Below are positions 51,956 to 64,000 of a stretch of DNA of 64,000 bases, in pieces (within the stretch, counting starts at the first letter, position 1; each line of letters starts with the position of its first letter). The notes under the pieces were generated by a model that saw only the letters and a program-made list of their open reading frames with translations, made no database searches and was not told the DNA's origin. Source of the stretch: Thalassomonas viridans. Lineage in GTDB: Bacteria; Pseudomonadota; Gammaproteobacteria; Enterobacterales; Alteromonadaceae. Both the position numbers and the translations under genes were made by a program. The stretch is from the NCBI RefSeq assembly GCF_000948985.2, contig NZ_CP059733.1:2170001-2234000 (forward strand), in the 5' to 3' direction.

Positions 51956-54421
51956 ATGAAATTACAATTACTCGCCGCTGCAATCAGTTTTTCCCTGGTT
52001 GCCTGTGCCGCCAATCAAACTCCGTCTTCGCCTGCCGGTCAACCGGCAAAAGCTGCCGAAGTGGTTAAAGCTACGCCTGCTGCAGGTACTGACAGCAGTG
52101 ATATCATCACATTAAAACAGATCATGGCAGATCCCGACTGGATAGGGCGTGCGCCCGAGTCCTGGTACTGGGGAGATGACAACCAGACGGTATATTTTAA
52201 ACAAAAACGCGAAGGCTCCCCGATAAGGGACCTGTACCGCAAAAGTACCGGGGCAAAAGGCAATGGCGAGCAGGTGGCATTAGCCGACATGCACGCCGCT
52301 GCCGACATGTACGCGGTAACCAACAATGACGGCACGTTAGAAGCCTATGAATTTGAAGGTAATGTTTTTGTAAAAGACCTTGCCGGCAAAAAGATCCGCC
52401 AGCTGACCTTTACCTCGGCCTACGAATATTCGGTAATGTTTCTTGCCGACGGCAATGTCGCCTACCGGGCGGGCAATGCCTTTTACCGTCACGACCTTGA
52501 TACCAACCAGGTAACCGAACTGGCCAACTTATTGATTGCCGACGAGCCGGAAGGCATCAAAGAGCCGGATACCTATATAGGTAAAGAACAGCACAAGCTA
52601 ATCGACTATGTTGCCTTGCAACACAGAAATGCCAAGTTAGCCAAACAGCAAAAAGACGCGCTGGAAAAGGGCAACAAGGGCATTACCAAAACAGACTTTT
52701 ATTTAGGCGAAGGCAATAAAATTGTCCATGCCAGCCTGTCGCCTGCCGGGGATAAGATTTTTGTCAGTATCGCTGACGACGTACCGGACCGTTACCCCAG
52801 CGATATCATGCCCAACTATATTGCCGGTGATGCTGAAATTAAGGCCCAGCAGGTACGTTCCAGGGTGTCTGACAACCGCAAATACAGCGAAACCCTGTTT
52901 GTCTTAGATTTAAACACCATGGAAAAATCCGAGCTGAGCTATGAGACTCTGCCCGGTTTTGACCAGGACGTGCTGGCCGAAGTGCGTAAAGAAAACTTTA
53001 AGCGCGAAGGCAAGGAATATACCTCGGAAAAAACTCCGCGTGATATTCATGTGATCCGCGCCAATTTCCCGATCCAGTGGCATAAAAACGGCCAGCAGCT
53101 GGCAGTAATGCTTGAAGCCTGGGATAACAAAGACCGCTGGATTGCCACGGTAGATTTTAATGAAAACAGCCTGGTTTCCCAGCACAGATTACATGACGAT
53201 GCCTGGATCAACTGGTCGTTTAACGAGTTCGGCTGGTTAAGCAACAGCGACAAGCTTTACTACCTGTCGGAAGAAAGCGGCTACTCCCATGTTTATGTGA
53301 AATCCCCGGGTGAAAAAGCCACCCAGATCACCAGCGGCAAATATGAAGTGCGGGATTTGACCTTATCCAGGGACGAACAAACCCTGTACTTTAAAGGCAA
53401 TAAAAAGCACCCGGGCATATATGAAATCTACTCATTAGATATTGCCAAAGGCGAAGTGACGGCATTGACCGACCTTGGCGGTAAGAACGATTACCAGCTG
53501 AGCAATGACGAGTCTAAACTGCTGATTGAACACTCCGAAATTACCATGCCGCCGGAATTATACGTGCAGGACGCCACTCCAGGCGCCACTGCGGTGCGTT
53601 TAACCCATACGGTTTCAGAGAAATTCCTGAGCCTGCCGTGGACTGCCCCTTCAGTGGTAGCTGTTCCTTCAAGCCACCAGGAAGACCCTGTTTACACCAA
53701 GGTATATCTGCCGAAGAATTTCGACAAAAGCGCTGAAAAACATCGTGCGGTAATGTTCACCCACGGCGCAGGCTACCTGCAAAATGCACATTTGGGCTGG
53801 TCGGTATATTTCCGTGAATTTATGTTTAATAGCATGCTGGCCCAGCAAGGCTACGTGGTGTTAGACCCCGACTATCGGGCATCGGAAGGTTACGGCCGCG
53901 ACTGGCGTACTTCCATTTACCGCCATATGGGTAAACCTGAAGTGCAGGATATGCGCGACGCGGTAGAATGGGCAGTAAAAAATGCCAATGTTGATAAAGA
54001 CAGGGTAGGGACGTACGGCGGTTCATACGGCGGCTTCCTGACCCTGATGTCGCTCTTTACCGATCCGGATTTGTTCCAGACCGGTGCGGCAATCCGTTTA
54101 GTGTCTGACTGGGCGCATTATAACCACGGCTACACTTCCAATATTCTAAACACCCCGGAAGATGACGCCATTGCCTATGAGCGCAGCTCGCCGATTTATT
54201 TTGCCGAAGGTTTGACCAAGCCACTGCTTATCAATGCGCCTATGGTGGATGACAATGTATTTTTCCAGGATACCGTGCGTTTGGTGCAAAGGTTAATTGA
54301 GCTGGAAAAACAAGACTTTGAAACTGCGATATACCCGGTGGAGCCTCATGGCTTTGTTCAGCCGAGTTCCTGGTTGGATGAATATCGCCGTATTTATAAG
54401 TTGTTTGAAACTAGGCTGTAA
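51956..54421 (+). CDS. S9 family prolyl oligopeptidase-like lipoprotein
   Basis: 821 residues. I start at ATG 51956 because KLQLLAAAISFSLVACAANQ is a lipoprotein signal (Cys17). A beta-propeller-like region (about 60-560) is followed by the hydrolase domain. Ser690 is in GTYGGSYGGF, Asp765/766 in APMVDDNVFFQ, and His798 in VEPHGFVQPSSW, so the triad is complete. It should cleave short peptides, probably dipeptidyl-peptidase-like, in the periplasm. No clear ribosome site is visible. A terminator follows. Confidence 0.9.
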   Translation: MKLQLLAAAISFSLVACAANQTPSSPAGQPAKAAEVVKATPAAGTDSSDIITLKQIMADPDWIGRAPESWYWGDDNQTVYFKQKREGSPIRDLYRKSTGAKGNGEQVALADMHAAADMYAVTNNDGTLEAYEFEGNVFVKDLAGKKIRQLTFTSAYEYSVMFLADGNVAYRAGNAFYRHDLDTNQVTELANLLIADEPEGIKEPDTYIGKEQHKLIDYVALQHRNAKLAKQQKDALEKGNKGITKTDFYLGEGNKIVHASLSPAGDKIFVSIADDVPDRYPSDIMPNYIAGDAEIKAQQVRSRVSDNRKYSETLFVLDLNTMEKSELSYETLPGFDQDVLAEVRKENFKREGKEYTSEKTPRDIHVIRANFPIQWHKNGQQLAVMLEAWDNKDRWIATVDFNENSLVSQHRLHDDAWINWSFNEFGWLSNSDKLYYLSEESGYSHVYVKSPGEKATQITSGKYEVRDLTLSRDEQTLYFKGNKKHPGIYEIYSLDIAKGEVTALTDLGGKNDYQLSNDESKLLIEHSEITMPPELYVQDATPGATAVRLTHTVSEKFLSLPWTAPSVVAVPSSHQEDPVYTKVYLPKNFDKSAEKHRAVMFTHGAGYLQNAHLGWSVYFREFMFNSMLAQQGYVVLDPDYRASEGYGRDWRTSIYRHMGKPEVQDMRDAVEWAVKNANVDKDRVGTYGGSYGGFLTLMSLFTDPDLFQTGAAIRLVSDWAHYNHGYTSNILNTPEDDAIAYERSSPIYFAEGLTKPLLINAPMVDDNVFFQDTVRLVQRLIELEKQDFETAIYPVEPHGFVQPSSWLDEYRRIYKLFETRL

Positions 54422-54782
54422 TTAGGTAAGTTTCTTTAAGAATAAAGCTGGCAATGTCGGCTTTATTTTTTTAGGGTTGATATTTTACACAGTTATGTTC
54501 GGGTTGATGAAACTGTTTTGTTAGATGGAAAAATTCCGTATTTTCTGAGTTTTTTAATATTCGAAATATAGGAAAAGCAATTGATATAATGAGGGGGAAA
54601 TGATTATTTTACATTTTATTAAATTCTGCAAAGACGGAAAAAAGCTGTGTTTAAACATGGAATTTTTCCGTCTATTAAGCTGTTGTTATACGGCATTGAA
54701 ATCGCGTCCACTTGCAACTCATGCGGGCTAAACAAATTAAATAATCTGAATTCATGATTATCGCTCACTAAAAGGAGTAACT
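54422..54782. other. AT-rich boundary region with repeated GGAAAAATTCC palindromes
   Basis: Base composition drops to AT-rich after the terminator, marking the start of the accessory region. TAGATGGAAAAATTCC (54522-54537) and its inverted near-copy (54658-54674) each contain the 11-bp palindrome GGAAAAATTCC/GGAATTTTTCC. They lie 120-250 bases before the large gene and could be operators. No gene is seen. Confidence 0.5.
54441..54472 (+). terminator. Intrinsic terminator after the S9 peptidase gene
   Basis: AATAAAGC (54441-54448) pairs with GCTTTATT (54460-54467), with an 11-base loop and a T run to 54472. Confidence 0.78.
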
Positions 54783-57700
54783 ATGTCTGGTTGGCATGTC
54801 ACGGAGAATGATATAAAAAACTGGACTGCGACAGATAAGCGCAGGTCAGAAGAGTTACTTCCTCAGCTTATATATAAACTTATACTGGCTTCATCCAATC
54901 CAATAAAAATTGATTTTCCATTTGGGGACTCTGTATCCACCGGTGGTTGGGATGGCGAGCTTGAAGTTGATCAGGGTAGTCTATTTGTACCATCGGGATT
55001 GTCAGCTTGGGAGTTTGGAACTGATAAAAGCGTTAACTCTAAAGCTAATGATGATTATGAAAAGAGAACCAAGGCTCCTGATCCGTTTGATAAAAAAAAC
55101 ACTACCTATGTTTTTGTAACATCGAGGCATTGGAAAGATAGATCAAAGTGGGAAGCCGAAAAAAACCTTGAAGAAGAATGGTGTAGTGTAAAAGCAATTA
55201 ATGCAAAAGTTTTGTGTGACTGGCTGGAGCAGTGCCCGGCGGTACATCGTTGGTTTGCAGAGTTAATCGGTAAACGGTGCCCTAATTTATGGGATATTGA
55301 ACAGAGCTGGTCAAAGTTTTCCAATATCACAGAGATTTCACTCACTGGTGATTTTTTCCTCCATAGTAGGGATGAGCAAGCCGACCGTTTAAAAGATTCT
55401 TTAATGGGTGACCCTGCCAGTTATACAGTATGCGCCAAGTCTATTAATGAATCTCAGGGTTTTATTCTTTCAGTCATATTAAATGGTGATTCACTAAGCT
55501 CAAAATTTCTAACAGTACTCGACCAGTCGGCTTGGGATGATATTGCTTCATCTAAATCTCCGCTCATATTAATGCCAATCAATTTCCAGCCAAACGGTGT
55601 CGGTGATGCAGTCAGTAATGGGCACACTGCTATATTGCCTACAGATGAATCAAGCCAGCAAACCCCGCTCATCCGTTTAGATAAGCGGCCTCGGTTGGTT
55701 CAGCAGGAGGCGATACAAAAGCTCGGCTTTAATGATAGCCAGGCCTCTAAGTTATATTCTGATACTAAAGGCTATTTGGAGCCGCTGCTGAGACATGAAA
55801 TTTTAAGGCCCAGAGAATATATTGCACCAAAGTGGCCAGCAGAGGTTGATGCAGATGTATTATTTGCAGCTTTTCTTGCTACGGAGTGGAATTCGAGTAA
55901 TGACAATGACAAAGATATTTTGTCCGCTTTATCGGGAATGGATTACGACCAGCTTGAAAAGCAACTAGATAAGCTGTCCACTTATTCTGATACGCCTATC
56001 CGTAGAGTTGGTGCGGTTTGGCAAGTGGTATCCAAAATTGACTTTTGGTTGAACATTAGAAGCTTAATGTCAGTTTCCCATATCGATAGACTTGGTGACA
56101 TTTGTGGCAAGGTATTAGGAGATACTGATCCATCATATAACCTAGATCCAGATGAAAGATGGATGGCTTCTGTTAAGGGTAATACACCAAAATACTCTGG
56201 GCTATTGAAAAGAGATATAGCTGATACTTTAGCCTTACTATCAACTTATAATGATGATCATGTATCTCAGCTTGGTGGGGTGTCGGTTAAGAATAAGATT
56301 GATACCTGGTTGTGTCATCTTTTCAAAGATAATAATACGACGGAGTTTTGGTATTCACTTGGCAGATCCACATCCCCTTTAGCTGAAGCTGCGCCAGAGG
56401 TTTTTCTAGATGCGGTAGATAACTCCTCGTTAGGTGAAAATTCACCATTGCTCGGTCTATTTAACTCGGAAGCCGAAGATAGTTTTACTGGTGGGTGTTA
56501 CCACTCTGATCTTTTATGGGCTTTAGAAACTATATCCTGGAATAAAAACTACCTCACTAGAGTCTGCCAGGCTTTAGCAAGGCTTTCGGAAATAGATCCT
56601 GGCGGCAGATACTGTAATAGGCCATTTTCTTCGTTAGTCGACATTTTTATTGGATGGGTTACATATAGCTCCGCTACGCATGATGAACGGGCTAACCTTA
56701 TTAAAGAAGTCCTCTTGAAACAGTATCCTGAAGTTGCCTGGAGATTGATGCGTGAATTGTTGGTTGGTAATACGAGAACAACAAGCGGGTTAGCTAGTCC
56801 AGATTATCAAGATTGGGCTGAAGGGGTTGATAAAGCTACTAAACAAAGCGACTACTTTTCATATGTCGGAAAGATTGTTGATATGATGATCGCTGAAGCC
56901 GACAAAGACCCAGATAATAGATACATTGATTTGGCGAGTAACTTTGATTCCTATACTGTAGGCCAGCGCGGAATTATCATTGATAAATTGCTGTCAGTTG
57001 ACATTGATAAGTTATCGGAAGATTCTCGCAAAAAATTACTGAAGCGTTTAAGGGATTTAATCTCTAGGCATAGAGAGTTCTCAGATGCCGATTGGGTATG
57101 GCCAGATGAAGTAATAACCAAATTGGAAGAGGTTTATCTGCGCCTTGATTTTGATAGCCCCGTACTCAATGCGAAATATCTTTTTGATGATCATTGGCCT
57201 GATCTGATTGATCCTGTAAAAAGAAGAAAGGTGCCATATGATGAAAGGCAGGAATACTTAGAATCTTTGCGAGTTGAAAAACTAGAGGAATTATATGAAG
57301 AGTCTGGGGTTGACGGCTTTAAAGAGTTGTTAGAGAGCTGCAAATTTCCTAGGCTGGTGGGTTGTTCATTATATAAGTCTAAACTAAAAGATTTATTCGT
57401 TGATGAGTTGGTTGTTTGGCTGGGGCAAGATGGCGGCTATCAGGAATGTTCAAATGGATATTTTTCAGTAATGGCACACTTCGACTTTGCTAGTGCCAAG
57501 AAAATATTTAGCGAACATCACTTGATGGATGAAAGCATTAAAAGCCAGATGCTAGTAAATTTCCCTGTTACCCAAGAAACATTCGATATTCTTGAAGGGT
57601 GTGAAGAATCTGTACAAGAGAGCTATTGGCATAAAGTCACGTATTACTTTGTTCAAGATAAAGATTCGTCTTTGGTAGAGTATATTTCTAGCAGCCTGTT

Positions 57701-58553
57701 GAAGAATGGCAGGCCTCTGGCTGCCGTTGATGCCTTTGCCCAATCTCTCCATCGGGGAACAAGTGCGGGAGATTTGGATGCCAAGCTTGCTCATCAAATA
57801 CTTATAAAAGTCGCTACTAACCCTGAAGATATAGATAGGGTTTCAATACAGGCTGTAAGTCATGATATTACTCAGGCGATAAAGTTTATTCAGGATTCTG
57901 GCCAGTGCAGTGATGAAGAGGTGTTGCAGGTCGAATGGCTATATGTAAAGGCATTTCGCCATCATGATTTCTCCCCAACTTTTATTCATAAATCAATTGC
58001 AAAAGATCCATCGAATTTTATTCAATTAATAAAGTGGGTGTTTTTAAGGAAAGATGGTGTTGAAGAAGAGGAGACCATGTCGGAGGAACAAGCCAAACAA
58101 GTAGCCAGTGCCGCGTGGGATATACTCGATACTTTACACCTTTTGCCAGAAGATGATTTTGCCCATGAATGGGTTTCACTGGTTAGGGGGCAGTTAATTG
58201 AATGCGGCAGGTTAGAAATTGGTGACTTGTATATAGGGAAATACCTATCCAGATGTCAGCCAGATGAAGAGGATGGTATATGGCCTAAAAAATCTGTTAG
58301 AGGTGTTATAGAATCTCTAAAGAGTGAGTCTTTTGAAGAAGGTATAGTCAATGGAAAACTAAATTCCAGGGGGGTTACCACAAGGCATCCATATGCTGGT
58401 GGAGAACAAGAGAGGACTTTGGCCGAAGGATATCAAACGGACTCAGAGTCAGTGCAGTTGATATATCCACGAACAGCTAAAATATTAAGGGTGCTTGCAG
58501 ATCATTATCGTTCAGATGCCAATCGTCATGATCAAACAGTAGATTTGAATTAG
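54783..58553 (+). CDS. Large PD-(D/E)xK-like protein, candidate defence gene
   Basis: 1256 residues, no signal peptide or membrane segment. The N-terminal 165 residues have a nuclease-like pattern: GGWDGELEV (Asp57), SGLSAWEFGTDKSVNSKANDDYEKRT (split; Glu77, Lys82/87/94), YVFVTSRHWKDR. I recall this pattern from proteins with a restriction-endonuclease-like fold. The middle (185-360) resembles a helical or STAND-like module, but I find no Walker A motif. The remainder is long and helical (repeat-like). The C-terminus TTRHPYAGGEQERTLAEGY and PRTAKILRVLADHY looks like a conserved end motif. ATG 54783 has AAAGGAG upstream. Codon use is more AT-rich than in the core genes. An attC-like hairpin lies 75 bases downstream. 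Function in defence is inference. Confidence 0.6.
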   Translation: MSGWHVTENDIKNWTATDKRRSEELLPQLIYKLILASSNPIKIDFPFGDSVSTGGWDGELEVDQGSLFVPSGLSAWEFGTDKSVNSKANDDYEKRTKAPDPFDKKNTTYVFVTSRHWKDRSKWEAEKNLEEEWCSVKAINAKVLCDWLEQCPAVHRWFAELIGKRCPNLWDIEQSWSKFSNITEISLTGDFFLHSRDEQADRLKDSLMGDPASYTVCAKSINESQGFILSVILNGDSLSSKFLTVLDQSAWDDIASSKSPLILMPINFQPNGVGDAVSNGHTAILPTDESSQQTPLIRLDKRPRLVQQEAIQKLGFNDSQASKLYSDTKGYLEPLLRHEILRPREYIAPKWPAEVDADVLFAAFLATEWNSSNDNDKDILSALSGMDYDQLEKQLDKLSTYSDTPIRRVGAVWQVVSKIDFWLNIRSLMSVSHIDRLGDICGKVLGDTDPSYNLDPDERWMASVKGNTPKYSGLLKRDIADTLALLSTYNDDHVSQLGGVSVKNKIDTWLCHLFKDNNTTEFWYSLGRSTSPLAEAAPEVFLDAVDNSSLGENSPLLGLFNSEAEDSFTGGCYHSDLLWALETISWNKNYLTRVCQALARLSEIDPGGRYCNRPFSSLVDIFIGWVTYSSATHDERANLIKEVLLKQYPEVAWRLMRELLVGNTRTTSGLASPDYQDWAEGVDKATKQSDYFSYVGKIVDMMIAEADKDPDNRYIDLASNFDSYTVGQRGIIIDKLLSVDIDKLSEDSRKKLLKRLRDLISRHREFSDADWVWPDEVITKLEEVYLRLDFDSPVLNAKYLFDDHWPDLIDPVKRRKVPYDERQEYLESLRVEKLEELYEESGVDGFKELLESCKFPRLVGCSLYKSKLKDLFVDELVVWLGQDGGYQECSNGYFSVMAHFDFASAKKIFSEHHLMDESIKSQMLVNFPVTQETFDILEGCEESVQESYWHKVTYYFVQDKDSSLVEYISSSLLKNGRPLAAVDAFAQSLHRGTSAGDLDAKLAHQILIKVATNPEDIDRVSIQAVSHDITQAIKFIQDSGQCSDEEVLQVEWLYVKAFRHHDFSPTFIHKSIAKDPSNFIQLIKWVFLRKDGVEEEETMSEEQAKQVASAAWDILDTLHLLPEDDFAHEWVSLVRGQLIECGRLEIGDLYIGKYLSRCQPDEEDGIWPKKSVRGVIESLKSESFEEGIVNGKLNSRGVTTRHPYAGGEQERTLAEGYQTDSESVQLIYPRTAKILRVLADHYRSDANRHDQTVDLN

Positions 58554-59062
58554 CTAAAATTTCGGTAGACACTTAAGTGCTATTTTCTATGGTTCCTCCA
58601 GGTGTCGAGCGACAAGAATCTAAGTGCCGTATAACAAGCGCATGTTGTCGGACTGGTTTTCCGCTGCGCTCCAAACTAGCCGCAAATGCGGGCGTTGGTA
58701 TCGCACGATGGAAAACCCGGAGACAGCTTCCAACTCTTTGTCACAGGCAGTAAAGTCTTTAAACAGCTGCGCGGCGATTTGGAACATAGCCCGGTAACCG
58801 GTGCTTTGCTCGCGTCAGATGGCGGCTCTGAGTTGATAGAGCAAGGCAATACTCGTTGTGCTTATATCTGAATTAGTTTGGGGGGAGGCACTAGTTGGTA
58901 CTGTCTGCACACATCTTTAGCAAAGTGTTTTTCATTGTTTGAAATATGTACTATTGCTCGGAAGTAATGCTATAGATGAAAGTTCAACAGATATTGATAT
59001 GTGTTTGAGGTTTTCGCACAAGGAAAAGTGTTATACAGCTAAATTAGGCAAAGGAGAAGGCA
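58554..59062. other. Intergenic region with an attC-like site and a possible gene remnant
   Basis: About 500 bp. It contains the hairpin at 58629-58700. After it, GC-richer sequence with an open plus-strand frame (58686-58871, about 60 residues) has no ribosome site and could be a remnant of a cassette gene. The last 150 bp are AT-rich and lead to the toxin gene. Confidence 0.45.
58629..58700 (+). other. attC-like recombination site
   Basis: GTATAAC at 58629-58635 and GTTGGTA at 58694-58700 are in the positions of R'' and R'. Between them the arms pair: AAC, CGCAT, TTG, CGG, CT, GTTT on the left match AAAC, AG, CCG, CAA, ATGCG, GTT on the right. Single unpaired G, T and A bases on the left arm resemble the extra-helical bases of attC. 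The right core is degenerate. It sits directly after the large gene, in the orientation expected for the end of an integron cassette. Confidence 0.55.
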
Positions 59063-59722
59063 ATGCCAGACCTCTTAATTCCAATCGTATTCCCTGACTA
59101 TATAATCACGGTAGAAACCCCTGGCGCACGAATAACGATCCCGGATTATCTCCCCTATGTCGATATATTGCCTAATGAAATTCGTGTTCCCCATACAAAA
59201 AATAAAATAAGTGACTTAGGACATGCAGGGGTGTTATTTATCAATGGTAAATCAGGTGTTACTAGATATTATGAATATGGGCGATATGATCCACAGAAAT
59301 TAGGTTGGGTTAAGAAAATACTTAATTTGCCTGATGTGAAAGTTGATGCACAGGGAAAGATAATCGAATCTAGTTTATTAAAGGTTTTACAAATAATATC
59401 TAGTAAAGCGGGGAAAGGGGGAAGAATAAGTGCGGCATATATTAAAGCAGATAACAAATATGAAGCCATGCTGGAATATGCCCAAATTAGGATGGCGTTG
59501 AATTCTAACCCTAACAGGGAGCGGTACGATATTACTTCTTATAGTTGTGTCCACTTTATAAAAGGGGTTATGGATTCCGCAGGTATTGATACTCCCTGGA
59601 TGTTTGATCCTAGACCTACATCATATATTAAAGAAATTCAGGATGATTACCCTATTTTGGAATATGACCCGTCAGATAATAAGTTAATCATTAAAGAATC
59701 CGATTCTGTATTTGGCTTTTAA
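59063..59722 (+). CDS. Permuted NlpC/P60-like toxin, candidate secreted effector
   Basis: 219 residues, no signal peptide. It opens PDLLIPIVFPDYIITVETPG and has LGHAGVLFINGKSGVTRYYEYGRYD (split), with His54, and later ITSYSCVHFIKGVMDSAG with Cys162. A His before the Cys is the order of circularly permuted NlpC/P60 (papain-like) enzymes. I recall similar proteins encoded beside type VI secretion genes in Pseudomonas and Vibrio as effectors. AAAGGAGAAGGCA precedes the ATG. A membrane-anchored small protein follows after 2 bases, fitting an immunity gene. No secretion gene is in the window, so delivery is inference. Confidence 0.68.
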   Translation: MPDLLIPIVFPDYIITVETPGARITIPDYLPYVDILPNEIRVPHTKNKISDLGHAGVLFINGKSGVTRYYEYGRYDPQKLGWVKKILNLPDVKVDAQGKIIESSLLKVLQIISSKAGKGGRISAAYIKADNKYEAMLEYAQIRMALNSNPNRERYDITSYSCVHFIKGVMDSAGIDTPWMFDPRPTSYIKEIQDDYPILEYDPSDNKLIIKESDSVFGF

Positions 59723-59724
59723 TT

Positions 59725-60126
59725 ATGAAAAAAATATTGTTAATTTTATTAAGCATTTTAGTCCTTTTCTTTGTGCTTATAGCTATAAATCCACCAGAGA
59801 TCGTTTTTGAAGATAGGAAAATCGTTTATCCTGAAAAGCCTGAAAGTATTCCTAATAACGTTTTTTGGGCTGGCGGGATTGATGGCGGTAATTTTATTTA
59901 TGTTGAGCCATATAAGGACACGGGGACGTTGTATTATGTACAAATATATAACGACTTTACCGGCGATATTGAGTACAAAGGTTTATTGAAGTACTCAGGG
60001 AGGGGGAGTCTGAAACAGCCCTTGAATGACGCTGCTTTATATCAAGGATGGGATGGTACTAAGTTACATCTTGTTAGTGGCGAAAGCATGACTATATATG
60101 ATAATCAAAGCTCAAACGGAAGTTAG
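59725..60126 (+). CDS. Membrane-anchored small protein, candidate immunity protein
   Basis: 133 residues. An N-terminal hydrophobic segment (4-22, ILLILLSILVLFFVLIAIN) is followed by a soluble, charged, beta-rich part with several Tyr and Asp residues, which should face the periplasm. It begins 2 bases after the toxin stop and has no ribosome site of its own, so its translation is probably coupled. This is the usual arrangement for the immunity partner of a cell-wall or periplasm-acting toxin. I recognise no named family. Confidence 0.62.
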   Translation: MKKILLILLSILVLFFVLIAINPPEIVFEDRKIVYPEKPESIPNNVFWAGGIDGGNFIYVEPYKDTGTLYYVQIYNDFTGDIEYKGLLKYSGRGSLKQPLNDAALYQGWDGTKLHLVSGESMTIYDNQSSNGS

Positions 60127-60250
60127 CATCAGGGGAGCTAGGGGGCTTGCTTTTTGCAGAATGGTTATAGGTAGATCCACATAGTTTTTTTATGTTTTTT
60201 TGGTCTTAAACCTCTATTGGATATGAAGTAAACCATAATTACCAACAAAT

Positions 60251-60499
60251 ATGGTTTTGGCGGATTATACAATGAAATATATCACGGCACTTATTATGGG
60301 CTGTATATTTGTCATAGCATTAACTGTGTTTATTACTCCTTATGCAAATGACGTGTATATGTCATTTTATCAGCTCAGTTCCGGGCCAGATACCGAGACA
60401 ATATTGCTCGATAAGCTGATTTTTATTCATATTCCAATCTATTTCATATTAGGGTTCATCGCCGGTATATTTTTACATAAAAAATGCCTGGCAAGGTAA
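60251..60499 (+). CDS. Small two-helix membrane protein, unknown
   Basis: Up to 82 residues; a second start (ATG 60272) gives 75. Two hydrophobic helices (YITALIMGCIFVIALTVFI and FIHIPIYFILGFIAGIFL) flank a short loop. The C-terminus is basic (HKKCLAR), suggesting it stays in the cytoplasm. It lies 124 bases downstream of the immunity candidate and could be a second immunity gene or an orphan. No convincing ribosome site is seen. Confidence 0.5.
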   Translation: MVLADYTMKYITALIMGCIFVIALTVFITPYANDVYMSFYQLSSGPDTETILLDKLIFIHIPIYFILGFIAGIFLHKKCLAR

Positions 60500-60613
60500 A
60501 GCAACAGATGGTGGTTTTCTCCCGCTTTAACGGACAGCAAAATCATAACTAAAAATGAGGCGTCCAATGCCCCGATACAAGAATCAACAAAGGTAATTTA
60601 CGTACACAGGTTT

Positions 60614-60652
60614 GGGCGGTGGAAACTACTAATAAGCCCATTAACACCGCCC
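60614..60652. terminator. Weak hairpin before the Ser-rich small gene
   Basis: GGGCGGTG (60614-60621) pairs with CACCGCCC (60645-60652) over a 23-base loop. No T run follows. Listed as structure only. Confidence 0.3.
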
Positions 60653-60717
60653 GGCAAGCTGGGTTGGACTCGTAATAAATTGCTCGCCTGTTATGGCAGC
60701 GTTAACGGTATAAGAGT

Positions 60718-61023
60718 ATGTCGATAGAGTTATTTGAATTAAAGGGAAGTAGAGCTGGAAAGTTTCTATTTTATGCCGACTCCAAAAGATACGAAGACTT
60801 AGTAGATGTTTTTGAATTGTATCGCTCAAAAACGGGAATTTTTATTGATAAGTACAGGGATACAAAACTAAGTTCAGGTTTGTCAGTTTTAATTGAGTGT
60901 GTGCAGGAAGTAATGGCTTCAAGCTCAAGCTCAAGCTCAAGCTCAAAAGTACGTGAAGAATTTTTGGCGGTGTTAGTTACAGCAGATGCCGAAGGTAAAA
61001 ATGTTATTTTTCTTGGCGAGTAG
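60718..61023 (+). CDS. Small protein with a Ser tract encoded by a hexanucleotide repeat
   Basis: 101 residues, soluble, no signal. It opens SIELFELKGSRAGKFLFYADSK and has a run of nine Ser near residues 68-76. The run is coded by TCAAGC repeated four and two-thirds times (60919-60946). Because the unit is six bases, changes in copy number keep the frame and would only lengthen or shorten the Ser run. No family is recognised. The ribosome site is weak. It is in the accessory region, after the toxin pair. Confidence 0.5.
   Translation: MSIELFELKGSRAGKFLFYADSKRYEDLVDVFELYRSKTGIFIDKYRDTKLSSGLSVLIECVQEVMASSSSSSSSSKVREEFLAVLVTADAEGKNVIFLGE
60919..60946 (+). repeat. TCAAGC microsatellite, 28 bp
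   Basis: Four full copies of TCAAGC and a partial fifth, inside the coding sequence of the small Ser-rich protein. Confidence 0.85.
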
Positions 61024-61124
61024 TACTGCTAACAAATGACGAAAGTGTTAATTTCTCATTCTTAACTCATTTTAGCTGTACAGGGGCGGGCCAATACGCC
61101 AAGAAATCGCCCGCCCCTTTACTT

Positions 61125-61418
61125 TTATTCGTCCTCGCTATTCAGGTTCACTTTGAGGGCGCGCAGGCCCTGGTGGACCTCGTCGATTTGGTCCCGGTAG
61201 GTTCTGATCTGTATTTTCAGCTTATAACAGACATACCATATGCCTTCGCTGGTTTCCGGCGTGATGCAAGCGGGGTCGCGCGCCACCGCGGCGAAAGCAT
61301 CACAAAGGAAGGAGCATTCGTCACTGAATTTATTAAAGTCATCGCACAGTTCCAGGCTCTCGCTTGCCAGCTGAGATCTTTTGGCTTCAAATTCCCGGAG
61401 TCTTGTTGATTCAGACAT
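61125..61418 (-). CDS. Small helical protein with several Cys, unknown
   Basis: 97 residues from ATG 61418, which has GGAGG nine bases upstream; a longer frame to 61448 has none. It is charged and helical. Five Cys are spread over ELCDDF, DECSFLCDAF, PACITP and WYVCYK. It overlaps the stop of the gene before it by 8 bases, so the two are probably translated together. I know of no family match. Confidence 0.55.
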   Translation of the reverse strand: MSESTRLREFEAKRSQLASESLELCDDFNKFSDECSFLCDAFAAVARDPACITPETSEGIWYVCYKLKIQIRTYRDQIDEVHQGLRALKVNLNSEDE

Positions 61419-61650
61419 GATACCGGCCTCCCATGTTAGTTGAGTCATTTAAGCTGGTTAACAACGCACAGCCGCAGGAAAAAGTGCTGCCGGTGGTGTT
61501 GGCGGCATTAGCTGCCGGCGGGTGCTTATGTTGTTGAGGAATGCGCTTAGGAGTGAGCTCAGGTACAAGCCCAGGTAGGGGGGCAGGTATATTTTCTGTT
61601 AAATAAACTTTAACCGAGTGAAACTCTGGCATATCATTAGGTTTAGCCAT
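61411..61650 (-). CDS. Small Pro-rich protein with Cys/Ser/Thr-rich C-terminus
   Basis: 79 residues. ATG 61650 has AGAGGTATCC upstream, a good site. The N-terminal half is charged, with Pro/Leu runs (NIPAPLPGLVPELTPKRIP); the C-terminal half is small-residue-rich (AANAANTTGSTFSCGCALL, then TSLNDSTNMGG). The shape, a leader-like front and a Cys/Ser/Thr core, resembles precursors of modified peptides, but no modifying enzyme is visible in the window. It is followed by an overlapping small gene. Confidence 0.5.
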   Translation of the reverse strand: MAKPNDMPEFHSVKVYLTENIPAPLPGLVPELTPKRIPQQHKHPPAANAANTTGSTFSCGCALLTSLNDSTNMGGRYHV

Positions 61651-62425
61651 AATGGATACCTCTTAGGTTTGTATCTATTTTGGTTAGCTACCTCTGAGTG
61701 TCACCATCACTTGGGGGTAGCGCCTTGTCGTTTGCGCTTTGCTTGCGCTTTGTTTGCGGGTAAAGAAACACCTCCTCTGCTTGTTAATAACCACCTTTAG
61801 TTTTAGTACAAAATGGGGGATAAATCCGGTTTTTCCGGCAAATAATATTGCTGATATTTTTTAATACTGTACGGATAACTATACAGGCAGAAAACGCTAT
61901 TAAAAATAACAGGTTACCCGGTTAAAGTTGGTTGTTTTTGCTCCATTAAAACAAGCAAAAGATTATTGGTGATAAATATGGCTAACCGAGCGTTAACCGG
62001 CAAAGTGAATCGGCCAGAGTCACCCGGATATTTTCTTGATTGATAAAGTAGCTTCTATCCTAGTCTGGTGGATTCAGGGATTAGCTGAAGGCTTAATTTC
62101 GTTTGGGTTTAAAGCAGCAATCTCAGTTGGTGAAATTGACTGTTATGGTTCAATGCATTGTTTTTTCGCATGCGGCGAAAGAAGATTTATGAGCCCGTGG
62201 CGGGGGGAAGAAGGGGTTGGCGCAGCAGAGAAGCAAACAGGAACAATAAGCAATATTTACGGTTTTTTTATTCTTTGTCACCGAGTTAAGCGGGTTTAGT
62301 CACTTAGCCAGGTGTTTAAAACTGTTGGCTCAAATAATAGACTGTTGTATGATGTTTTTTGAACTTACATATGTTTATGTAGTTCATTTTATTACAATTA
62401 AAATAATCGATAAAAGGAATTTTAT
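61651..62425. other. Gene-poor region in the accessory end
   Basis: About 775 bp. A plus-strand frame at 62036-62299 (87 residues) has no ribosome site and no family; it may be a decayed gene. The small inverted repeat TTTTGCT/AGCAAAA lies near 61937-61962. No RNA gene was recognised. Confidence 0.4.
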
Positions 62426-62626
62426 ATGACCTCCAAAGTAAAAGCATTCTTGGCTGCGGCTTTCATTTCTCTGTTGAATGTTTCTATGCCTGTTCAGGCT
62501 GAGACTATTTCATGCACATTCGATGACGGCAGTGGCCATTTTGAGGCGGTTACTGATGATTATGAGCAAGGCAGTCGGCTCATAGAGCTTTGTATAGGTC
62601 TTGGGGGAACCCCAAGCTTCAGATAG
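62426..62626 (+). CDS. Small secreted protein with two Cys
   Basis: 66 residues. AAAAGGAATTTTAT precedes the ATG. A clear signal peptide (residues 1-25, cut after VQA) leaves a mature peptide of about 41 residues: ETISCTFDDGSGHFEAV, then YEQGSRLIELCIGLGG. The two Cys could form a disulfide. It is acidic. No family is recognised. A hairpin follows the stop. It could be a small exported factor or immunity-like peptide. Confidence 0.6.
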   Translation: MTSKVKAFLAAAFISLLNVSMPVQAETISCTFDDGSGHFEAVTDDYEQGSRLIELCIGLGGTPSFR

Positions 62627-62647
62627 CATCATTAGTTCATTTCAAGC

Positions 62648-62676
62648 GTTCACCGTACCCGTTGAGTACGGTGAAC
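62648..62676. terminator. Hairpin between convergent genes
   Basis: GTTCACCGTAC (62648-62658) is the exact complement of GTACGGTGAAC (62666-62676), with a 7-base loop. It lies between the small secreted gene and the kinase-like gene and may end both transcripts. Confidence 0.65.
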
Positions 62677-62688
62677 TGTTGCAATTCA

Positions 62689-63993
62689 TTATTTAGCTAA
62701 TGCAAATTCACCCAAGGTACGCTGGTGAGCGATAATCTTGGCGAGCAGGTTATCGGTTTCACTGTCAGAGGTTTCCAGTGCCTGCAGGTAAACATCATCA
62801 TGCACACATTCCTTCATACTCTGGATCATGTCCTGCACCAGGGCGTCAACTCCGCCATCGAGTTTTTCCAGCACACTGTCAAATGTTTCCAGGAGAGATT
62901 CTTTGACGGTGTCCGGGCTAATGGCATAAGCATAAGACGTTTTTGGCCCGCTTGCTAAAGTGCTTTTTGAGTCGTTATCAATAAAAACTAAGGTATTGCC
63001 GCTGGTGATCATAATATTGCCTGAGTTTGCAAGGCTCTCGTCATCGATGTAAAACCTGTCGCAGTTACCCATTATTCTGTCCAGCAGGAATGCCTTACCT
63101 AAATCTTGCCGGTTTAGGGGAGAGTTTAGGGCTTTAATGATTTGCTGCTCTTCGGCATCTTCTATCGAGGTGCCGTCCACCATATCTTGCATAGTGCATT
63201 CCATTCCTTTGAGCGAGTGGGGTTTGGCGACCTCCATGGACGATTGGGCTTCTTGTATCGCTGTATCTATTCTAGAAAAAAATCCCATATGGCTATAGGT
63301 TATAGAGTTATCATCTTTGACTGCAGCGAGTAAGGCGTTAAAGCACCCCAAAGGAGACTCGGAATTCCGATCTTCTGTTAATACTTTAGCGACATCATCA
63401 ATTGAGAGGCTACTGGCTGCCATTTCTTCGGCAAGCAGGGGAGCGGCGGATAATAATATATCTTTGATATTATCGTTTTTACTTGTCACGCCTATTTCGC
63501 TAAAGGCGTGATCTACGGCCAGCCTGGTATCTTTGGGTATTGATTTTTCATTGGCTGTGGCTAAGCCTGCTTTTTTCAGTATGTCGCCGCCCCGAATAGC
63601 ATCGTCGGCCTTATCCTGGTCGCCATATGGCTTTATTGTTAAACCGCCCTGGTCATTGTGGATGAAGTATACGCCACTGGCACTTGCGCTTTTAGCGCTT
63701 GAATGGGTGATCTTGGATACGGTGCCCAGCACCGAATCGTCGATTTTGGCTTCGTCACCGCTTAGTGACGGCGCATCTATATCGGCATTCTGCACAGAAC
63801 TCGCGTCTTGGGCTGAAAAGCTATTGCTTATATGTGTAGCGTCCTGAGCGTGTTTTGAGTTGTCGGGGGCTAGCGTATGCTCTTTTGTTATGCCGTCTGT
63901 TAAGTCATGTTGAGAATGGTTTGCCTTATCAAGCGTTAAAGGTGGTATGTCGCCGTGGCTGGCGTTAGCAGCTTTTGAGAGTGGAGATTCCAT
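62689..63993 (-). CDS. PI3/4-kinase or actin-fragmin-kinase-like protein, candidate effector
   Basis: 434 residues, complete; an in-frame stop lies just before ATG 63993. Residues 1-100 are low-complexity, Ser/Asp/His-rich and unstructured, as in secreted effectors. The kinase-like part begins SGVYFIHNDQGGLTIKPYG, with likely ATP-binding Lys121. It has FLLDRIMGNCDRFYID (Asp305, Asn310, Asp312) and SGNIMI (Asn326), then LVFIDNDSKS with Asp339/341 in the place of the metal-binding Asp. This order is found in actin-fragmin-kinase-like and PI3/4-kinase-like proteins. No signal peptide or membrane segment is present. Activity and delivery are inferred from the pattern only. Confidence 0.65.
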   Translation of the reverse strand: MESPLSKAANASHGDIPPLTLDKANHSQHDLTDGITKEHTLAPDNSKHAQDATHISNSFSAQDASSVQNADIDAPSLSGDEAKIDDSVLGTVSKITHSSAKSASASGVYFIHNDQGGLTIKPYGDQDKADDAIRGGDILKKAGLATANEKSIPKDTRLAVDHAFSEIGVTSKNDNIKDILLSAAPLLAEEMAASSLSIDDVAKVLTEDRNSESPLGCFNALLAAVKDDNSITYSHMGFFSRIDTAIQEAQSSMEVAKPHSLKGMECTMQDMVDGTSIEDAEEQQIIKALNSPLNRQDLGKAFLLDRIMGNCDRFYIDDESLANSGNIMITSGNTLVFIDNDSKSTLASGPKTSYAYAISPDTVKESLLETFDSVLEKLDGGVDALVQDMIQSMKECVHDDVYLQALETSDSETDNLLAKIIAHQRTLGEFALAK

Positions 63994-64000
63994 GTTTTAT

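Follow-up and report, generated by a model that had tools for sequence, protein, structure and literature searches.

An integron cassette gene of Thalassomonas viridans encodes a candidate P-loop-less STAND-like immune receptor

The 64,000-nucleotide stretch of Thalassomonas viridans DNA analysed here (contig NZ_CP059733.1, positions 2,170,001 to 2,234,000; hereafter the window) contains, at 54783-58553 on the forward strand, an open reading frame (ORF) for a protein of 1256 residues. This protein is probably a STAND-like immune receptor without a P-loop, which would combine a nuclease effector with a helical sensor and act in abortive-infection defence; the role in defence is one that we infer. 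Its division into a nuclease, a STAND-like domain and a helical C-terminus is strongly supported, and it is rather likely that the gene encodes a single-gene nuclease-STAND-sensor receptor whose nucleoside triphosphate (NTP) switch has decayed, so that the protein is predicted to be NTP-independent. A sequence-only reading of the same DNA had described this ORF, which is present as it reported, as a nuclease head on a large sensor-like body with a possible anti-phage role. That build has since gained from structure prediction, from three invariant residues (D57, E77 and K87) and from profile homology to PD-lambda-4_A.

The ORF is a genuine, intact gene under purifying selection. It begins with ATG, has AAAAGGAG immediately on its 5' side with a ribosome-binding site (AAGGAG, 54772-54777, forward strand) 5 bases before the start codon, and is free of internal stops. 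It occurs once in the genome (7.9 Mb, two contigs), and a search of three further genomes of the genus did not find it. Exact peptide patterns, which detect close relatives only, were used to scan genome contigs and recovered four copies with 91-94% amino acid identity, in Marinobacterium stanieri, Photobacterium aquimaris, Marinomonas ostreistagni and Vibrio hannami. The ratio of nonsynonymous to synonymous substitution rates (dN/dS), counted by a scripted Nei-Gojobori procedure, was 0.09-0.10 when the window was compared with the four copies one by one, and 0.09-0.19 across all ten pairs. The close copies, the low dN/dS and the existence of plasmid relatives at 24-29% identity therefore identify a real gene rather than a chance frame.

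Residues 1-165 (54783-55277, forward strand) form a predicted PD-(D/E)xK nuclease-like domain, the core fold of which is supported by the AlphaFold model and by Foldseek and VIA searches; structural matches of this domain include MspJI and FokI, both restriction enzymes. In an alignment of 31 rows (the window protein and 30 others with the same N-terminus, several of them near-identical, including L056, which runs off its contig), D57, E77, K87, A88 and D91 are invariant. The candidate catalytic codons are those of D57 (54951-54953), E77 (55011-55013) and K87 (55041-55043). Position 79, where the lysine of the (D/E)xK motif is expected, is glycine in 27 of the 31 rows, the window protein among them, serine in three and threonine in one, and the invariant K87 is a candidate for a shifted catalytic lysine. 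A single-sequence search of the PDB with the window protein returned nothing meaningful, and PDB profile searches with alignments of this N-terminus and of the QxK-type nuclease described below gave chance-level matches only.

The middle domain, residues 166-345 (55278-55817, forward strand), is predicted to adopt a STAND/AAA+-type NTPase fold without a P-loop and would thus be a pseudo-NTPase. The top Foldseek matches of the N-terminal model are Avs3, Avs4 and Avs5; no Avs chains were among the 50 VIA matches listed for that model. At the P-loop position, residues 213-222 (55419-55448), the window protein reads YTVCAKSINE. The Walker A pattern GxxxxGK[ST] occurs there in none of the 31 rows, most of which have a short A-x-S-x-E-E-like turn after the strand, and a GxxxxGKT string in L055 lies at its residue 76, within the nuclease domain. 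The Walker B acid is missing from the window protein and is not conserved, an aspartate following the strand in 5 of 31 rows (L009, L011, L015, L063 and L064). The sequence-only reading had also noted the missing Walker A and had concluded that the protein was not a plain STAND/Avs protein. The first observation extends to every aligned row, whereas the second holds in part: the P-loop is absent, but the middle domain is modelled as a STAND/AAA+ fold, so that the protein would be a P-loop-less relative inside the class. The models which that reading had proposed for the N-terminal regions gave the predicted nuclease fold in residues 1-165 and the predicted STAND/AAA+-type fold in residues 166-345; the latter goes beyond what it had suggested, as does the assignment of the gene itself as cassette cargo.

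Residues 346-1256 (55818-58550, forward strand; predicted local distance difference test score of the model, 82.7) are almost all helical and HEAT/ARM-like, and are the proposed sensor. A fold search with this module returned, among the matches listed, generic HEAT/ARM helical-repeat proteins only, condensin Ycg1 being one of them. Comparison across loci shows that the module is combined with different N-terminal parts. The PD-(D/E)xK and pseudo-NTPase N-terminus is found in 30 fetched loci besides the window, of which 16 are extended at the N-terminus and 14 are not, and a helix-turn-helix (HTH) domain was detected by Pfam in six of six extended N-termini scanned. Nine loci carry an alternative N-terminus with a conserved D...QxK pattern (in five aligned rows), which has no Pfam family and which we take to resemble DUF4297/Cap4-type nucleases. 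In two loci, a separate upstream gene has an RNEHYH motif and is HEPN-like, presumably resembling HEPN ribonucleases (the one scanned had no Pfam or PADLOC match), and in two loci the upstream gene is of HetE-N type, by Pfam in L018 (HetE-N, E 1.5e-40) and by resemblance in L059. In this tally, same-place duplicates were removed, L016, L031 and L033 were set aside as broken or incomplete, and L071, which is split by a frame break, was classed by its first piece alone. The part common to all architectures is the C-terminal ~860-920 residues, and a module shared by all N-terminal types is suited to a sensor.

Two further observations concern the same module. In the two-gene form (L059:5555-8688 and L018:7570-10664), the small HetE-N-type gene stands directly upstream of the C-terminal module, and a similar H(S/T)G(T/A)GxN stretch ends the small protein and starts the large one. 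Additionally, the synonymous rate (dS) of homologue L003 against L004 or L005 is 0-0.04 across residues 346-1100 and ~0.4 in the last 156 codons; for L003 and L004, the values are 0.04 (residues 346-700), 0.02 (701-1100) and 0.41 (1101-1256). Because the last 156 codons differ in this way from the middle of the gene, the pattern points to exchange of the sensor end (residues 1101-1256) through intragenic recombination in these homologues.

Profile comparisons connect the family to PD-lambda-4_A. With hhalign, the whole protein aligned to it colinearly over 1067 columns (probability 99, E 2.9e-18), the C-terminal module with E 8.1e-16 and the N-terminal part with probability 92.9 and E 3.6e-7. 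Reversed-template controls gave E 0.94 for the whole protein, 0.58 for the C-terminal module and 0.11 for the N-terminal part, and E was 0.4-0.77 in three column-shuffled controls of the whole protein. When the C-terminal profile was compared with its own reversed form, E was 7.9e-4; helical content by itself can thus raise a score to that level, which is far weaker than the homology values. The family also aligned with the two closest PD-Lambda-4_A sequences alone (E 7.9e-13) and with three distant ones (E 2.3e-6). The relatives used were matched by the PADLOC model PD-Lambda-4_A (PDLC03991) in 11 of 339 genomes; eight loci were kept, five of these eight were aligned, and Walker A is kept in all eight. 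Because homology is seen at the profile level and Walker A is present in these relatives but not in the window family, the latter is, by profile alignment, a P-loop-less, full-length distant relative of the reported anti-phage protein. Membership of PD-lambda-4 itself is not claimed, since the window protein is unmatched by the model up to E 1 and Walker A is absent from its aligned family; relative L011 was matched weakly and in register (599-740 against 596-738, E 5e-4).

The family is patchily distributed and mobile. Plasmid relatives were found in 23 of 72,556 records, in 18 of these covering 80% or more of the length; their hosts include Rhizobium, Arthrobacter, Cupriavidus, Shewanella and Adhaeribacter, and these records place the family in Proteobacteria, Actinomycetota and Bacteroidota. 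One of 50,697 phage records had a partial match, and 12 contigs of a viral collection hold relatives, with no contig beyond those 12 in further viral scans. Among 59 nearer genomes, 3 hold relatives, and among 369 of the class, 6 do; both counts include the own genome. A phylum scan with alignment, the matches of which were classed by the author's reading, returned 41 of 398 genomes: the own genome and 10 others hold the family's main part, G486 has an N-terminal fragment, and 29 match the HTH columns only. A near-identity search detected the QxK-nuclease form in 8 of 5,426 complete Escherichia coli genomes, in seven over at least 80% of the query. For instance, in E. coli isolate SC418 it is an unannotated "hypothetical protein" (L127:7007-10549) that adjoins prophage tail-fibre genes, and this copy is convenient for tests in E. 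coli.

The neighbourhoods of 12 of the 23 plasmid records were read (one without annotation); for eight of them, a second region of the same plasmid record served as the control. Six of these eight were read with flanks of 10 kb and two with 8 kb, the control regions measured 23.7-23.8 kb except for one of 19.7 kb, and product names were judged by eye. Clear defence or toxin-antitoxin neighbours include a type I restriction-modification system, AbiE, and Abi, SIR2 and RES-Xre genes. Such genes occur in 5 of 8 family regions versus 2 of 8 controls, or 6 versus 4 with borderline genes; the enrichment near defence genes, which the sequence-only reading had named as a check, is weak.

In the proposed mechanism, the C-terminal helical module would recognise a phage product, and binding would release or reorient the N-terminal nuclease via the middle domain, which would work without nucleotide as a scaffold or as a hinge for oligomerisation. 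The nuclease would then cut phage and/or host DNA, most likely resulting in abortive infection, and the HTH fused in relatives would presumably add transcriptional autoregulation. This interpretation has weak points: chiefly, the defence role is derived indirectly; next, the pseudo-NTPase fold is a prediction; and the neighbourhood enrichment is suggestive at best.

Other explanations share parts of the evidence. The matches of the nuclease domain to restriction enzymes, the existence of DNA-binding HEAT-like solenoids (condensin Ycg1, one of the generic matches of the C-terminus, is an example) and the single-gene cassette would also suit a restriction-type enzyme, whose helical arm and middle domain would contact foreign or modified DNA directly for the head to cut, in a type IV-like manner and without a protein trigger or cell death. 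We consider this unlikely: the C-terminal module also occurs with HEPN-like and HetE-N-type parts, which is a better fit to a signalling sensor, and no modified-base reader domain was found in Pfam up to E 1. Neither of these two types of part is known to be a DNA nuclease.

It is very improbable that the protein is a toxin-antitoxin-like or autoregulated addiction module, i.e. a large toxin, kept in check by neighbours or its own HTH, whose role is to stabilise plasmids, prophages or cassette arrays. Although all scanned extensions contain an HTH and 16 of 30 relatives are extended, such an extension is lacking in the window form and in 14 fetched relatives; divergent AbiE genes adjoin two relatives and the family is carried on plasmids and in integrons, yet no antitoxin partner recurs in the neighbourhoods read, and the protein is far larger than addiction toxins usually are. 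Quite improbable as well is a non-defence role in DNA processing or regulation on mobile elements, possibly with an inactive nuclease-like domain. Gly79 at the canonical lysine position, the weak neighbourhood enrichment and the fact that no experimental data were encountered on any member would agree with it, whereas the invariance of D57, E77 and K87 in 31 of 31 rows, the full-length homology to PD-lambda-4_A, the fold match to Avs proteins and the patchy, highly mobile spread argue for the immune receptor.

The sequence-only reading had placed an attC-like site near the gene, and one was found at 58629-58696. Judged from its sharp homology borders and this attC-like 3' border, the gene is the cargo of an integron gene cassette of ~4.0 kb (54685-58696, forward strand), running from G/TTATACGG, where the slash marks the border, to the end of the attC-like site. 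By BLAST, DNA homology to the Marinobacterium and Marinomonas copies covers exactly 54685-58696, with unrelated flanks. The match extends over 54683-58636 for the Vibrio copy and over 54705-58638 for the Photobacterium copy; in these two, homology stops where the attC begins, and other ends are present there. G/TT is the cut point of integrons. The 5' border lies directly 3' of another attC-like end in two of the copies, one of which has a base change.

The attC-like site itself (forward strand) reads TATAACAAGCGC...GTCGGACT...CGCTGCGCTCCA...GCGGGCGTT, of the type TATAACAAG...GTCGGACT...CGCTCCA...GCGTT, and was aligned with the attC-like sites that accompany two of the other copies and with three further sites, two upstream in the Marinomonas locus and one in the Photobacterium locus. 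It was called by sequence signature and not with a curated attC model. Bottom-strand folding was not clearly better than that of shuffles (z -0.78), so the attC assignment relies on the boundaries and the signature. Scanning with a strict R-box pattern did not recover the site; a relaxed pattern recovered some attC-like sites in the related loci, yet still not the one in the window. An intact integron integrase, IntI, is encoded ~0.8 Mb from the cassette (387 bits against a cut-off of 265). No integrase was found in either the window or the 23.8-kb loci of the four copies, and the cassette is not in an array beside the integrase.

Directly 5' of the cassette is a dispersed repeat of the genus (54471-54684, forward strand), copies of which elsewhere mostly stop at the same base. 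The repeat contains a hairpin, extends up to ~210 bp and has many copies in three other genomes of the genus. Of 11 copies examined with a query that ran to 54720, 10 end at 54684-54687, at most 3 bases from the cassette junction, and the examined copies mostly end in AAGCTGTT followed by unrelated sequence. The repeat may be the genus's own attC-like cassette boundary or another mobile repeat. Downstream of the cassette, the ORF at 59063-59722 is a TseH-like type VI secretion system effector candidate (Pfam PF25218, E 1.3e-29), and the 133-residue ORF directly behind it (59725-60126), with no family match, could encode its immunity protein. The toxin pair of the sequence-only reading is thus upheld for the first ORF, and the pairing is a guess because the second has no family. 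A second and smaller cassette may be marked at 60640-60712 by an attC-like outline (TTAACACCGCC...GCAGCGTTAAC), which aligns poorly with the other attC-like sites and lies just 5' of an ORF for 101 residues that contains a short serine-coding repeat. Rfam gave no match up to E 1 on 54000-64000.

In bacteria, plants and animals alike, the established view of STAND/NLR-type receptors is that NTP drives their switching. A family that keeps the build and is under selection without a P-loop would offer a natural way to ask whether nucleotide is needed for switching at all. Tentatively, and with some doubt, these proteins could represent a widespread class of STAND-like receptors without nucleotide switching, in which a conserved pseudo-NTPase hinge links the nuclease to a common C-terminal sensor module that is paired elsewhere with a second nuclease type, HEPN-like or HetE-N parts, target binding alone activates defence, and one form crosses bacterial orders as an unusually large integron cassette.

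Among described systems and databases, the window protein has no Pfam or NCBIfam family above cut-off and no PADLOC match up to E 1. The description of the gene as undescribed holds as regards a name in these three resources but not entirely, because PHROGs v4 contains phrog_18693, of unknown function, which the protein matches over 6-1253 (E 2.4e-150). That entry also matches the QxK-nuclease and HetE-N-linked relatives, in the C-terminal module only; it has neither name nor function. To the extent searched, the domain reading, the loss of the P-loop and the exchange of effectors are new, and they add an unnamed candidate defence family. General terms found no paper on the family among those listed from the open-licence PMC literature (the name phrog_18693 was not searched). 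The order of effector, STAND domain and proposed sensor is shared with Avs3, Avs4 and Avs5, the top Foldseek matches of the N-terminal model, and Avs2 is likewise described, in PMC12724215, as an N-terminal effector, STAND ATPase and C-terminal sensor. However, the window family has no Walker A, on which Avs5 immunity depends according to PMC12931631, and its C-terminal model gave generic HEAT/ARM folds among the matches listed; plain STAND/Avs membership was rejected for the missing Walker A.

As in reported integron anti-phage cassettes, a cassette bounded by attC carries the candidate defence gene, in Vibrio as well as other marine bacteria. A review (PMC12409362, on Darracq 2025 and Kieffer 2025) describes integron defence systems as streamlined to small size, whereas this cassette has 4 kb, so that integrons can carry a candidate defence protein of 1256 residues. 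PD-lambda-4 is listed as anti-phage under P-loop NTPase in a table of PMC10952713 and credited to Vassallo et al. 2022; "lambda-4" was not found in the accessible main text of that paper (PMC9519451). It has the same order of parts over its full length, i.e. a PD-(D/E)xK-like domain, an NTPase-fold middle and a long C-terminus, and a similar size (1283 versus 1256 residues), but PD-lambda-4_A relatives combine the intact Walker A (eight of eight) with a QxK-type nuclease motif (in the five aligned), and the window family has neither.

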